From NCBI GenBank assembly GCA_020721085.1, contig DYNJ01000007.1, positions 1 through 33,811 of the forward strand: a DNA stretch of 33,811 bases. Reading direction: 5' to 3'. Of this stretch, positions 18,721 through 24,648 are shown one piece after another; the stretch's first letter is position 1; each line of letters opens with the position of its first letter. The stretch comes from Sulfurovum sp. (lineage in GTDB: Bacteria; Campylobacterota; Campylobacteria; Campylobacterales; Sulfurovaceae). Under the pieces are notes generated by a model. The model ran no database searches, was not told the origin of the DNA, and worked only from the letters and a program-made list of their open reading frames with translations. A program made the position numbers and the translations under genes.

Positions 18721-19119
18721 GTGATAGGGCAAAAGCCCCATGTGATGCGTTTTTTGATTGTTTGTTTTTTCATTGTGGATTCCTATGATAGTTTATGTAA
18801 TGATACAAACAATCAGTGTCATCCAATGCACCCCTTTAGGGAAGGCAATGAAAGAACACAAAGACTATTTATTGAAGAATTGGCAAAAAATGCTGGATAT
18901 GAACTTAATCTTTCAAATGTAAGTCAAAGTGTTATGATACAAGCGTCAATACAAGGAGTTAAAGGAAATATAAAAGGTTATGAGAACATCATAAAAGTGT
19001 ATTTAAAAAATCAATCAATAAAAATCAAAAGTGAACTAGAGCCTCCTTCTGAGAAACATAACAATAATATGCACCCTTCACCCTCTATTGATCCTTTTAA
19101 AAAGCCTTGGGAGCGATAG
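18721..19119 (+). pseudogene. 5'-truncated Fic-domain protein (C-terminal half) with altered FIC motif
   Basis: MHPFREGNERTQRLFIEELAKNAGYELNLSNVSQSVMIQASIQGVKGNIKGYENIIKVYLK; canonical motif HPFREGNGRTQR reads GNER; N-terminal Fic helices absent. Confidence 0.75.
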
Positions 19120-19132
19120 AAGATTTGTCAAG

Positions 19133-19359
19133 ATGAAAAAGAAAATTGCTATCGAGTATAACAAGGAAACATCTAAAATAACCCTCAATACCTACGATGA
19201 TGGCTTCTTTCTCTTCGAAATAGATATATCCCCGATGCTGTCCTCACTCTAGCCCTTGAAAAGCTATATGATGACTATAACTTAGATCAAGGCGATGAGC
19301 TACATATCACGAAAAAGAAAAGCTTGGGAAATATAACGAAGATTGAGTTGAAAAAGTAA
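19133..19359 (+). pseudogene. Frameshifted small ORF (about 75 aa if repaired), unknown function
   Basis: MKKKIAIEYNKETSKITLNTYDDGFFLFEID... stops at 19252, but a second frame continues YIPDAVLTLALEKLYDDYNLDQGDELHITKKKSLGNITKIELKK* to 19359. Confidence 0.55.
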
Positions 19360-19363
19360 GGAT

Positions 19364-19404
19364 TTTTTAAAAACTTGGTTTTGTGCGTTTGCTACATAAT
19401 ATCG
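19364..19404 (+). repeat. Direct repeat copy A bracketing the NTase cassette
   Basis: tttttaaaaac-ttgg-ttttgtgcgtttgctacataatatcg; 26 bp (19379-19404) identical to 23220-23245, plus matching tttttaaaaac at the same offset. Confidence 0.8.
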
Positions 19405-19842
19405 GAATTAAAGAGGTCTTATGCTGAAAACAAAATCCTCGTTTTAGTCTTGGAGCCGAACGGAATCAATAATTTTTACAAAAATATCCATTCTTTTGAG
19501 TTTGATGGGAAAACTGTTGAATTGGAAAAAACCGTTGTTTTGCTTAATATAAAAAAGGAAAATGTTTACAAACGGCTTGACGAACTTGTTGATATAAGCA
19601 CAACCCCTCTACTGTATGAAAAAGAAAAAAATCGAATAGAAAGAGGTAGGCTTCGTGAACTTATTGAGGAGCTTAAAATTGATGGGTATGCAAATGTTAT
19701 AAGGGATAGATATTTTACAGAAGGATATGTGAAAGACATAGTTAATGCTATTCCCCTTTTGGTGTCTTTTGAGAATTCCAAGAAAAGAGAGATGAATCGC
19801 CTTTTAGGCACTAATAAGCCTAACTCCAAGATATTATTTTGA
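19375..19842 (+). CDS. Hypothetical protein (155 aa); apparent N-terminus lies inside direct repeat A, so the gene may be truncated or chimeric
   Basis: Open frame ending ...SKILF; first residues (MVLCVCYIIS) are encoded by the 26-bp repeat. Confidence 0.4.
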   Translation: MVLCVCYIISELKRSYAENKILVLVLEPNGINNFYKNIHSFEFDGKTVELEKTVVLLNIKKENVYKRLDELVDISTTPLLYEKEKNRIERGRLRELIEELKIDGYANVIRDRYFTEGYVKDIVNAIPLLVSFENSKKREMNRLLGTNKPNSKILF

Positions 19843-19973: not shown

Positions 19974-20195
19974 ATGGAATGGAACAGCAAAGCCAAGAGA
20001 CTTATTAAGTCAGAGTTAGCTAAAAGAGAAATTGATTATGTAAAGTTGGCTAAACTGATGAATGATATTGGGGTTGAGGAAAAACAAGTCAATATAGCCA
20101 ATAAGATAAATCGTGGAACATTTAGTTTTGGTTTCGCTTTGCAGGTTTTTAAGGCTATTGGTGTTGAAAATTTAAACATAAAGGATATAACATGA
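19974..20195 (+). CDS. DUF6471-like small protein (73 aa)
   Basis: MEWNSKAKRLIKSELAKREIDYVKLAKLMNDIGVEEKQVNIANKINRGTFSFGFALQVFKAIGVENL; W..KakrliKsEl...id Y..La.lm..iG......NKInRGtFsfgF pattern. Confidence 0.7.
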   Translation: MEWNSKAKRLIKSELAKREIDYVKLAKLMNDIGVEEKQVNIANKINRGTFSFGFALQVFKAIGVENLNIKDIT

Positions 20196-20707
20196 GTATT
20201 CTTGAGCGAATAAATCAAAGAAGGGAAGAGAAAGAAAACCAACTTCTTAAAAACCCTTTATACACCAAAGAGTATAAGCAGTACTATATTACAGGCACGA
20301 GTGCCTTCAATATCCCATATATGGGGACGCAGTGTGATTGGCATCAGATTGATACCCTTAAAGCGGGTAGAGAGGGTAAGTTTGTAATGCATCCGCATGT
20401 CATTGTTGGTGCAGAGGATATCTTTGGAGAGTATGGGATATGGGATTGCAGTAAATGGCTAGAAGGAAGGGGTTTTAAAAAAAATAATTATCTTTGTGCA
20501 ACACCGATTAGAGCCATTCTTGACATACTTTACTATCGGATAGTTATCAAAAAACAGTATCCCCAATCACTTGATGATTTTTGGGACTTTATGTTTGACG
20601 AAGTGGACATAAGTGAATTACATCAGAAGTTGGGCGAGCTAGAATTGAATCTTAGCCATAGTGAAGCTGAAATCCTCAGAAGCTGGAGAAATAAAAATGA
20701 ACTATGA
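20192..20707 (+). CDS. 171-aa protein, putative antitoxin/partner of the NTase toxin
   Basis: ATGA overlap with the upstream gene and 11-nt overlap with the downstream NTase; GTSAFNIPYMGTQCDWHQID and RAILDILYYRI segments; family not securely recognised. Confidence 0.55.
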   Translation: MSILERINQRREEKENQLLKNPLYTKEYKQYYITGTSAFNIPYMGTQCDWHQIDTLKAGREGKFVMHPHVIVGAEDIFGEYGIWDCSKWLEGRGFKKNNYLCATPIRAILDILYYRIVIKKQYPQSLDDFWDFMFDEVDISELHQKLGELELNLSHSEAEILRSWRNKNEL

Positions 20708-21440
20708 CGATAATCAAAAAGAATTACACATTCTTTTTATGAGAGAGATTTTGTTATCCATAAATTCAAGAAATTATCCCACAGTCTTAAAGGGTGGCAC
20801 AGCTCTTCTTCTTTGTTATGAGTTGGATAGATTTAGTGAAGATATTGACCTCGACTCAGAAAAAAGCTTTAATTTGGAGACCGCAATCAAGGATGCTTCT
20901 CGAAAGATAGGCATAACAATTAACAGTATAAACATACCAAAAGATACAGAAACAACAAAGAGATATAAAATTCATTACAATGGGGATATGTATCTAAAAA
21001 TTGAAACATCACTTAGAAACGAAATAAATGATAATGATGTTTCTGTCATAAATGGAATCAAGGTGTATAATCCAGAAATAATTCTTAGCATGAAGATCTC
21101 AGCAATATATGGAGAAAGAGCAAGGACGAAAGCAAGAGATCTTCACGATATTATATTTTTAGCAAAAAAATATATCTCTGTATTCTCGGAGGAACAAATT
21201 GGCAACTTCCTGAGATTATCAGGAGATATCGATAAAATACTTTCATTTGAAGATGATTATAGTGAAGACTTTATTCTGAGGGAACAATTTGAAAATGACA
21301 TTGATGAACTAGAAAAACAAGCACAAAAATTAAAACATTTGAAAGAACAAACGGAAATAAAGTCTATTTTAGAAAAAAATAATAGTGCGCAGACTAAAAA
21401 ATCTAAAAATGACGACCCTCCACAGAGATTTAAACCATAA
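20697..21440 (+). CDS. Nucleotidyltransferase, AbiEii/AbiGii toxin family (module 1)
   Basis: PTVLKGGTALLLCYELDRFSEDIDLD motif and KARDLHDIIFLAKK; start placed at MNYDDNQKELHILF (20697), not the track start 20661. Confidence 0.85.
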   Translation: MNYDDNQKELHILFMREILLSINSRNYPTVLKGGTALLLCYELDRFSEDIDLDSEKSFNLETAIKDASRKIGITINSINIPKDTETTKRYKIHYNGDMYLKIETSLRNEINDNDVSVINGIKVYNPEIILSMKISAIYGERARTKARDLHDIIFLAKKYISVFSEEQIGNFLRLSGDIDKILSFEDDYSEDFILREQFENDIDELEKQAQKLKHLKEQTEIKSILEKNNSAQTKKSKNDDPPQRFKP

Positions 21441-21580: not shown

Positions 21581-21697
21581 TTAGCAAAAATCGCTCAAAG
21601 TACCGTTCTTGACTGCCTGATAGCTCTCTTCGCCTACGAGTTTGCGGATGATCTCAAGCCCAAAACATATAGCAGTTCCAAGGCCGCGGGAAGTCAT
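21581..21697 (-). pseudogene. Duplicated 3' fragment of the DJ-1/PfpI gene
   Basis: Encodes MTSRGLGTAICFGLEIIRKLVGEESYQAVKNGTLSDFC*, versus native MTSRGPGTAICFALEIIRKLVGEESYQAVKSGTLSDFC at 23507-23623; about 91% nucleotide identity by eye. Confidence 0.92.
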
Positions 21698-22605
21698 TTC
21701 TTTAGTTTATTCTTCTTTCGTGCTTCGAAATTTCTAGCCTTTGCCATCTCAGCGGGCATATCCCTATAAATCTTTTGGCACTCCCTCTCAATAAAAATAT
21801 TATGCTCATAAACACACAAATAATCATCAATATTGTCACACTCATTCTCTTTCATTTTTTCTTCCATATAGGTCTGGTAAGAAAAATCCAACAATTCTGG
21901 AGCTAAAAGTAATGTGTCGGCAAAATCATTTTGAAATTTTATAACAGCCTCTTTCATAGCATAATTAGACTGACCATCATCCACGAGTGCGATATCCCAT
22001 CTTCTTGTTATTTTTAGTGCGGTTATCAAACTATCTATATTGTAAACATAGCCTGTGGTCTCCAAAAACTTAAGTTCAAGATCCAATAACATATCTTTTA
22101 AGCTGATAGGCTCCAACTGTTTAAATAGAAAATATATGTCAAATAAATCTTTTATGGTGTCAGTTCTGTCACATAGCGCTTTTAGTTTGTACAGGAGCAT
22201 ATTGTAATGGTTTTCTATCTTTGGAAAATCTTTATGTGATATAAATGTCAAATCCCCAAGTCTGTCAGCTGTAAAGTTCAATAGCTCTATTTTAATGATT
22301 TCATCGCTATCTCCCACATTACAAAATATACGATGTGTGCCATCCTCTGTCTTTATATGTCGAATACTATGTAGATCTTTATTGCCCCCCAAGGCAGTGA
22401 TAATCTTTCTTGAAAGGCTTGCAAACTCTCCCGTTCCCATTTCATAGGGGATAAAGAAATCAAGATCTTCCGACTCACGGTATTTTTCAGGGAGGAGATA
22501 GCATTGAACGGCTGTGCCGCCTGCTAAAAATATCTCGTCTATATTTTGAAGGGTTGTGAGTATAACTTTTTGGTTTTGATAAACCTCATTCCAATTACGC
22601 AACAT
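21694..22605 (-). CDS. Nucleotidyltransferase, AbiEii/AbiGii toxin family (module 2)
   Basis: EIFLAGGTAVQCYLLPEKYRESEDLDFFIP motif and TIKDLFDIYFLFKQ; stop codon lies within the DJ-1 fragment. Confidence 0.82.
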   Translation of the reverse strand: MLRNWNEVYQNQKVILTTLQNIDEIFLAGGTAVQCYLLPEKYRESEDLDFFIPYEMGTGEFASLSRKIITALGGNKDLHSIRHIKTEDGTHRIFCNVGDSDEIIKIELLNFTADRLGDLTFISHKDFPKIENHYNMLLYKLKALCDRTDTIKDLFDIYFLFKQLEPISLKDMLLDLELKFLETTGYVYNIDSLITALKITRRWDIALVDDGQSNYAMKEAVIKFQNDFADTLLLAPELLDFSYQTYMEEKMKENECDNIDDYLCVYEHNIFIERECQKIYRDMPAEMAKARNFEARKKNKLKK

Positions 22606-23089
22606 TCAACCCTCCACCTTTATATATATCTACAACATTTTTCCAAAATATAGCTTTCCTCTCTTCAAAAATGTGCTTTATGGTCGGCAAAAGTTTTTCA
22701 ATAGTTTTGGTAGTGAGAAGCTTTAATATATCTCCGTAAAACAAGTTCTCAAAAAATGGTTTAACAAAGTCAGGATTTCCCTTTTTAACTTCTTTAAGAA
22801 TATAGGTCGGCTCATAGTTCTTCCCCCAAAAAGCAACCTGTATTTCTTTCACCAGCTTATCTGTAATCTCTATATGCGTAACAGGAAGCAGTTTTAATTG
22901 ATGCCTTCTAGGATTTTCAATAAAAGATATTTTTTTGAGTAGTACAAAAGCATAATTGGGTACATTTCCGCTTCTTTTCCATCCCGCTACGGTATCATAG
23001 GGTATTTCGCTTTTCTCGGCAAACTCTTTTTTTGTCATGCCGTGATATTTTAATGCTTTGTCAAAAAGGTAAGCTTTTTCTTTGTTCAT
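22595..23089 (-). CDS. HTH-domain protein, putative antitoxin of module 2
   Basis: KAYLFDKALKYHGMTKKEFAEKSEIPYDTVAGWKRSGNVPNYA is a Cro/CI-like HTH; 11-nt overlap with the NTase start; C-terminal region FENLFYGDILKLLTTKTIEKLLPTI. Confidence 0.75.
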   Translation of the reverse strand: MNKEKAYLFDKALKYHGMTKKEFAEKSEIPYDTVAGWKRSGNVPNYAFVLLKKISFIENPRRHQLKLLPVTHIEITDKLVKEIQVAFWGKNYEPTYILKEVKKGNPDFVKPFFENLFYGDILKLLTTKTIEKLLPTIKHIFEERKAIFWKNVVDIYKGGGLNVA

Positions 23090-23099
23090 TTTATTTCCA

Positions 23100-23122
23100 A
23101 ATATTGTTAATTTAACAATATT
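23100..23122. promoter_or_regulatory. Perfect palindrome upstream of the HTH antitoxin gene; candidate autoregulatory operator
   Basis: aatattgttaa-t-ttaacaatatt: 11-bp perfect arms, 1-nt centre, 10 nt upstream of the start codon. Confidence 0.7.
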
Positions 23123-23204
23123 ATATCATATTTAATTGTATGTTGGCACAAAACTAATTTTTTAAAAAATCCTCACTTTCAAAAAGCCTTAGGAGTGTTA
23201 AGCG

Positions 23205-23245
23205 TTTTTAAAAACATATTTTTGTGCGTTTGCTACATAATATCG
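23205..23245 (+). repeat. Direct repeat copy B bracketing the NTase cassette
   Basis: tttttaaaaac-atat-ttttgtgcgtttgctacataatatcg; same orientation as 19364-19404. Confidence 0.8.
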
Positions 23246-23256
23246 TAAATAATGAT

Positions 23257-23321
23257 CTTTTCCGCTTGAGAGATTTTTGATCTTGACTCTTACAAATGCC
23301 GCGCCTTTGCCAGGCTTGACA
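23257..23321 (-). pseudogene. Exact 65-bp fragment of efp
   Basis: cttttccgcttgagagatttttgatcttgactcttacaaatgccgcgcctttgccaggcttgaca is identical to 24498-24562 in efp. Confidence 0.95.
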
Positions 23322-23506: not shown

Positions 23507-24070
23507 CTAGCAAAAATCGCTCAAAGTACCGCTCTTGACTGCCTGATAGCTCTCTTCGCCTACGAGTTTGCGGATGATCTCAAGCGCGAAGCAGATCGCA
23601 GTCCCCGGGCCACGGGAAGTCATGACCTGACCATCAATCACAACTTTTTGCTTATCTGTATATCCTTCAGATCTTATCTGCTTTTCAACAGACGGATAGC
23701 ATGTATAGTTATGGTTTAATACCCCTGCGACATGCAGCGCATAAGGAGCTGCGCATATAGCGCCTATATACTTGTCATTTGCCTTAAACTCTTTTAGCAG
23801 AGATTGAACTTTTGAATTTTGGGCAAGTCTATTTGTTCCGCCATGTCCGCCCGGTAGAACTATCATGTCATAATCATCCGATATAACGAAATTAATATCA
23901 ATTTGACCTTGTATAATAATACCGTTTGCACCCGTTACAAGATCACTCGCAAACTCATCGCCAAGATAGGCTATATCTACATCTATCCCGCCTCTTCTCA
24001 TTATATCGATAAGATTTACAGCTTCGATCTCCTCAAAACCCTCTGCCAATGGAACAAGAACTTTTGCCAT
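23507..24070 (-). CDS. DJ-1/PfpI (ThiJ) family protein
   Basis: 187 aa; AKVLVPLAEGFEEIEAVNLIDIMRRGGIDV, VLPGGHGGTNRL, GAICAAPYAL nucleophile elbow, VMTSRGPGTAICFALEII. Confidence 0.93.
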   Translation of the reverse strand: MAKVLVPLAEGFEEIEAVNLIDIMRRGGIDVDIAYLGDEFASDLVTGANGIIIQGQIDINFVISDDYDMIVLPGGHGGTNRLAQNSKVQSLLKEFKANDKYIGAICAAPYALHVAGVLNHNYTCYPSVEKQIRSEGYTDKQKVVIDGQVMTSRGPGTAICFALEIIRKLVGEESYQAVKSGTLSDFC

Positions 24071-24081
24071 GATTGCCTCGC

Positions 24082-24648
24082 TTATTTTGCTTTTTCCAGA
24101 TATACGCCTTCAACCGTATCTACCTTGATCATCTCACCTTCGAGTATATGAAACGGCACCTGTACCACAGCGCCGCTCTCAAGAGTTGCCGGCTTTTTGC
24201 CGCCCTGGCTGTCGCCCTTGAAGTTTGGCGGTGTCTCTACGACTTTGAGCACTACAGTTTGCGGAATCTCGACAGAGATCGCCTTGCCGTTGTGAAACAG
24301 TATATCCGCTTCCATGCCATCTATCATGAAACTGAATGTGTCTTCACCCACCTGCACTCTAGTCAAACCTATCTGTTCATAAGACGATGTATCCATAAAC
24401 TGCAAAAACTCTCCGTCATCATAGAGGTACTGCATAGTCTTCTGCTCAAGTGCGGGCACCTCAAATTTATCTCCTGCATGGATTGTCTTTTCGATCACTT
24501 TTCCGCTTGAGAGATTTTTGATCTTGACTCTTACAAATGCCGCGCCTTTGCCAGGCTTGACATGCTGAAACTCTATCACCTTAAAGGGAATACTATCTAC
24601 TTCAAGACGAACACCTTTTTTGATATCACTCATGCCTATTACTGCCAT
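24082..24648 (-). CDS. efp: Translation elongation factor P
   Basis: [46 protein letters not shown]; start placed at MAVIG (24648). Confidence 0.95.

Follow-up and report, generated by a model that had tools for sequence, protein, structure and literature searches.

We report that a pair of overlapping genes, encoding a Cro/CI-type HTH protein and an AbiEii-type NTase, is probably a two-gene, autoregulated toxin-antitoxin (TA) module. This reading draws on the gene pair itself, its motifs, its linkage across genomes, the conservation of its operator, the co-variation of its two proteins and the asymmetry with which they are lost. The pair, here called module 2, lies on the reverse strand of the window (the whole 33,811-nt stretch of Sulfurovum sp. 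DNA analysed here) and is convergent with module 1, a forward-strand pair that PADLOC calls as AbiEi plus AbiEii. The original prediction had proposed a second NTase TA unit with an unusual antitoxin at this place; its coordinates, strands and sequence quotations were all correct on re-check (Table 1), and the segment quoted as N-terminal ('MTKKEF...') is indeed present, though at residues 18-44 and not at the very N-terminus. A small DUF6471 gene (PF20075, E = 1.3e-25) precedes module 1 in the region 19974-21440. The same small gene also stands ahead of other transposon cargo, which suggests either a three-gene unit or a transposon-borne regulator.

Table 1. Features of module 2 and its surroundings (window positions unless a locus is named).
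Feature	Position	Strand	Details
Tail-coding sites	window 19060-19119; L002 4411-4458 and 5973-6014; L080 170-217
Module 1 AbiEi-like gene	20192-20707	+
Module 1 AbiEii NTase	ATG 20697, stop 21440	+
Copy of DJ-1/PfpI 3' end (source 23508-23623)	21582-21697	-	116 nt, 91% identical; one block junction
NTase gene	21694-22605	-	ORF, 303 aa; AbiEii/DUF1814, predicted toxin
HTH/NTase start/stop overlap	22595-22605	-	11 nt, ATGTTGCGTAA; from sequence
HTH gene	22595-23089	-	ORF, 164 aa; predicted antitoxin and autorepressor
Shine-Dalgarno-like GGTGGAGG	22611-22618	-	just upstream of overlap, within HTH gene; from sequence
Operator palindrome AATATTGTTAAATTAACAATATT	23100-23122	-	perfect 11+1+11; predicted binding site
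Operator core TTGTTAAATTAACAA	23104-23118	-
Promoter	23120-23149	-	extended -10 TGATATAAT (TATAAT 23120-23125), candidate -35 GTGCCA, 18-nt spacer; consensus match only
Partial inverted copy of such a transposon end	23146-23179
IS1595-family transposon right-end remnant	23176-23246	+	terminal repeat TTTTGTGCGTTTGCTACATAATATCG; beside HTH promoter
EF-P (elongation factor P) gene fragment (source 24498-24562)	23257-23321	-	65 nt, 100% identical; other block junction

The predicted toxin is, judged by its sequence, a bona fide AbiEii/DUF1814 protein. It matches PF08843 (AbiEii) with E = 8e-11 and 42.8 bits against a gathering cut-off of 22.5, and five PADLOC AbiEii models match it below E = 1e-5 (PADLOC AbiEii, E = 5e-11). 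Motifs I-IV of AbiEii have been defined as hG[G/S]x~15DhD with an R in motif II, KLxAaxxR and (K/R)DxxD, and mutation of the four motifs abolishes toxicity (PMC3985639). The NTase carries them as G29G30, R43xxxD47LD49, K140LKALCDR147 and K152DLFD156, departing from the definition in a spacing of x16 and in an L for the aromatic residue of motif III. When the window sequence was aligned with seven relatives at 38-87% identity, G29, G30, R43, D47, D49, K140, A143, R147, K152, D153 and D156 were invariant in all eight. Because all four toxicity-essential motifs are kept, a catalytically live toxin is expected. The NTase shares 31% identity over 143 aa with that of module 1, in keeping with the proposal that this is a distinct second unit. 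No relatives of the NTase were found in phages or viral contigs, and a PDB search returned no convincing sequence relatives of the NTase, the HTH protein or their profiles.

The predicted antitoxin consists of a Cro/CI-like HTH in residues ~1-55 and a partner-specific region in residues ~56-164, and its closest relatives are found in Sulfurovum-like Campylobacterota. It gives a weak Pfam match to HTH_26 (E = 0.016) and also matches phage regulator profile families, whereas none of the AbiEi models of PADLOC and Pfam match it and hhalign against the AbiEi of module 1 yields a probability of 0.2%, i.e. no similarity. The suggestion that the partner is a Cro/CI-type HTH protein and not AbiEi is thereby upheld. 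The same results make it very improbable that the locus is a classical, type IV AbiE system whose AbiEi has degenerated, even though such a system would explain an NTase that Pfam and PADLOC both identify as AbiEii, as well as a bicistronic layout and an inverted-repeat operator like those of AbiE (PMC3985639).

Members of the HTH family are also paired with two further AbiEii subfamilies, so that three types can be distinguished: type A, which includes the window (HTH protein of 161-164 aa, NTase of ~280-325 aa), type B (HTH protein of 135-140 aa, 'MHRDDW'-like NTase) and type C (HTH protein of ~144 aa, 'MINPQTQ'-like NTase of ~226 aa). Between types, the HTH domains are on average 51% identical and the NTases 28%; the figure for the remaining ~85-110 residues of the HTH protein is 19%, against 56% within types. 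Across 13 pairs, the distances of this C-terminal part correlate with those of the NTase at r = 0.94 and those of the HTH domain at r = 0.74, in values that ignore phylogeny and involve poor cross-type alignments. The C-terminal part thus tracks the NTase type more closely than the HTH domain does, which suggests that partner specificity resides in the C-terminus. In one genome found in the class-wide search (G246, locus L160, 1821-4934), an HTH gene of type B and an HTH-NTase pair of type C are separated by ~2 kb, a further NTase-like ORF lies in the interval, and each HTH gene has an operator variant of its own.

The length of the gene overlap is not constant among relatives. Module 1 also overlaps by 11 nt (ATGAACTATGA, provided that ATG 20697 is its start), and the original prediction took the shared length for a conserved architecture of both modules. 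This did not survive comparison with homologous pairs, which overlap by 11 nt in L002, by 8 nt in L015 and all type B pairs (always ATGCATAG) and by 4 nt in type C (always ATGA). Most relatives have 8 or 4 nt, and the 11 nt common to modules 1 and 2 are a coincidence.

The linkage on which the original prediction staked itself holds throughout. In 12/12 intact homologous loci of Campylobacterota (window, L002, L003, L005, L006, L007, L015, L016, L017, L099, L101 and L102), the NTase gene is immediately preceded, with an overlap, by an HTH gene of this family; one of these loci is on the Arcobacter plasmid pACLO (L099). Both genes are under purifying selection, with dN/dS against the nearest relative, L002, of 0.055 for the HTH gene and 0.126 for the NTase gene. 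This selection, together with the conservation of the pair in other genomes, indicates that the gene pair is not a product of chance. On pACLO (L099, 208-4861), a HipA gene and a reverse transcriptase/Cas1/Cas2 cluster lie closely upstream of a type B pair, whose HTH protein is annotated as a 'hypothetical protein'.

Loss of the two genes is one-sided. Intact HTH genes lack an intact NTase in four cases (L013, L022, L026 and a second copy in L033); in L013 the NTase is lost right past the overlap, and in L022 it is truncated. No intact homologous NTase was found without its HTH gene. HTH genes alone but no NTase alone, and hence no toxin without antitoxin, is the pattern that a TA pair predicts. 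In L004 (3229-4206), an in-frame deletion that removes motifs I and II has left a fusion of the HTH protein with the C-terminal NTase half, and the NTase matches of L042 and L043 are fragmentary. Distant NTases in L008 and L009 are preceded by a different small gene instead of this HTH gene. Any NTase match occurs in 10/175 genomes of the family and strong matches in 4/397 genomes of a class-wide sample, a patchy distribution that is consistent with horizontal spread.

A palindrome precedes the HTH gene and shares positions both with the end of the extended -10 and with the expected start site; the -10 region is also kept in L002. The derived motif, TTGTYAnnnTRACAA, has a single match in the window. 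In its strict form it precedes 14/25 distinct HTH loci at a distance of no more than 120 nt, compared with 3/476 other ORFs (Fisher p = 5e-18, a value inflated by relatedness, as loci that are kin by descent make both this enrichment and the above correlations overstate independence). One of the three control matches, L024, is a family HTH gene missed by the filter, and the other two neighbour such genes. With one or two mismatches allowed, the operator is present at nearly all HTH loci, for example as TTGTCAATACAACAA in L003; one operator pattern search gave no match at L023, L004 and L013. A second site follows 27 nt downstream in many type B and C promoters. L016, L017 and L102 carry a shifted operator, TCGTCAATTTGACTA (TCGT variant), and have TVTGWKK in the predicted recognition helix, where most others have TVAGWK or TVVGWK. 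This rule relating helix and operator also holds at both HTH copies of G246, which was found later. The conserved motif thus marks a putative operator at the module's own promoter, as is expected of TA modules.

Operator conservation supports autoregulation but not antitoxin activity, and a regulator alone would explain it. The HTH protein could be solely the repressor of the operon, with no antitoxin domain, and the NTase could be restrained by weak synthesis or by modifying itself; NTases of MenAT systems can be silenced by auto-phosphorylation (PMC11375011). We consider this unlikely, as the residues outside the HTH change with the NTase subtype far more than the DNA-binding part does, which fits contact with the partner better. 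The family may also have another role, since some orphan HTH genes adjoin DNA methyltransferase genes. At L033 (1234-1740, reverse strand) and L022 (780-1244, reverse strand), family HTH genes with the same operator stand beside DNA methyltransferase-type genes and lack an intact NTase; these are possibly restriction-modification controllers.

The pair is framed by chromosomal fragments and transposon remnants. One junction of the block is a copy of the 3' end of a DJ-1/PfpI gene, which supplies the stop codon of the NTase, and the other is an EF-P gene fragment. The two copies differ in their identity to the source genes, and one simple duplication therefore does not fit. The transposon right end and the partial inverted copy of such an end are located between the HTH promoter and the EF-P fragment, and no transposase gene was seen in the transposon remnants of the window. 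Complete relatives have an ISXO2-like transposase, terminal inverted repeats and a short target duplication. The element in L079 (3332-7934) is bounded by inverted ends of 26 nt and an 8-bp duplication (GATTTTTT), encodes a transposase and carries a DUF6471 gene and an N6-methylase gene as cargo. Another copy, in L080 (1-3017), carries DUF6471, VbhA and Fic. The IS1595 family was assigned by Pfam on the L080 copy (DDE_Tnp_IS1595, E = 1.6e-39, and Zn_ribbon_IS1595), and the L079 transposase is similar by eye. An 8-bp target duplication is a trait of the IS1595 family. The repeated 26-nt site was also considered as an integron/attC cassette, which is ruled out by the paired inverted ends, duplication and transposase gene of L079.

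End-like sites occur in 11/175 genomes of the family. In the window, positions 18721-19405 hold a 3' remnant of Fic with a transposon end, followed by DUF6471 and AbiE. Across its copies, this IS1595-family transposon of Sulfurovum-like bacteria carries interchangeable defence, TA and restriction-modification cargo. In L002 (genome G067), too, the HTH-NTase pair begins immediately after a transposon end of this kind, and the NTase gene continues into the same tail-coding sequence. The presence of transposon ends beside the pair in both the window and L002 suggests that it travels near, and perhaps via, these transposons. At the transposon end, unrelated proteins, namely Fic, an AbiEii NTase and a 192-aa protein, share a C-terminal tail resembling HPSPSxDPxKKPWER. 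We rejected the idea that it is a widespread peptide tag, as G000 and G067 alone had exact matches in a DNA pattern search of 175 genomes and the remaining matches were inexact. The shared tail is probably a seam of cargo exchange at the transposon end; possibly it is a functional tail instead.

These surroundings raise the question of whether the pair is decaying, or is a chimeric join of metagenome assembly, instead of functioning as a unit in this genome. The gene fragments and broken transposon ends, the borrowed stop codon and the draft state of the host genome (87% complete, 147 contigs) are all compatible with this. We nevertheless give it very little credence, because both ORFs are intact, as are the promoter, the operator and the catalytic residues, because purifying selection acts on the two genes, and because the same pair lies by the same kind of transposon end in L002.

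In the TA module that we favour, DNA binding, toxicity, C-terminal neutralisation and the tRNA target are predicted steps. The HTH protein, as a dimer, would bind the palindrome at the -10 end and start region and repress the operon, as the conserved operator suggests, while its variable C-terminus would neutralise the cognate AbiEii-type NTase, as suggested by co-variation. The NTase may be translated from the overlapping start with its own ribosome-binding site. Loss of the antitoxin would free the NTase, leading to nucleotide transfer and a growth stop, and the target would most likely be tRNA acceptor ends, as for its MenT relatives. The module presumably spreads horizontally in Campylobacterota and has come to lie here amid transposon remains and chromosomal fragments, next to an AbiE pair.

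AbiE has been described as the fourth most abundant phage-defence system (PMC11375011). A standard catalogue seeks AbiEi beside AbiEii and the HTH partner has no PADLOC match, so HTH-NTase modules are probably under-counted. A broader proposal, for which we find belief and doubt evenly balanced, is a distinct and so far unrecognised HTH-NTase TA superfamily of Campylobacterota. In it, one Cro/CI-type DNA-binding domain would be joined to at least three different neutralising C-termini, with a separate AbiEii subfamily for each; all would follow a common operator code, and IS1595-family transposons with exchangeable cargo would be part of the means of transport. A single DNA-binding domain with three natural C-terminus/NTase pairings offers a clean system for studying how NTase antitoxins recognise their toxins, and the operator code is directly testable.

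AbiE is both a type IV TA and an abortive infection system, and in type IV systems antitoxin and toxin do not interact. Module 2 resembles AbiE in its DUF1814/PF08843 toxin with motifs I-IV, its bicistronic order with the antitoxin gene first and the inverted-repeat operator at its promoter (PMC3985639). The partner differs: in AbiE it is AbiEi (a winged helix plus a COG5340 domain), and in module 2 it is an HTH protein of the Cro/CI type, whose C-terminus is different and specific to its partner. As no AbiEi was recognised on examination, we do not file module 2 as AbiE. Modules 1 and 2 are neighbouring and convergent and share the NTase superfamily and the 11-nt overlap, but their antitoxins are without similarity and PADLOC recognises only module 1 as AbiE.

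The MenAT systems of Mycobacterium tuberculosis likewise combine AbiEii-homologous NTases with structurally diverse antitoxins (PMC10435456, PMC11375011). By published description, MenA3 and MenA4 are homologous to AbiEi, and MenA1 has no relationship to MenA3. MenT toxins add nucleotides to tRNA 3' ends (PMC10435456), and by analogy this modification is the likeliest model for the activity of the module 2 NTase. Xress-MNTss of Streptococcus suis shares with the arrangement predicted for module 2 an Xre-type HTH antitoxin, an NTase toxin, negative autoregulation and promoter palindromes; MNTss is set apart by its description, which likens it to kanamycin nucleotidyltransferase and not to AbiEii (PMC8406773). 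An Xre-type antitoxin with an NTase toxin therefore has a precedent, from another NTase branch. We conclude that the HTH-NTase module is a real but modest twist on AbiE and MenAT, with an unusual predicted antitoxin.
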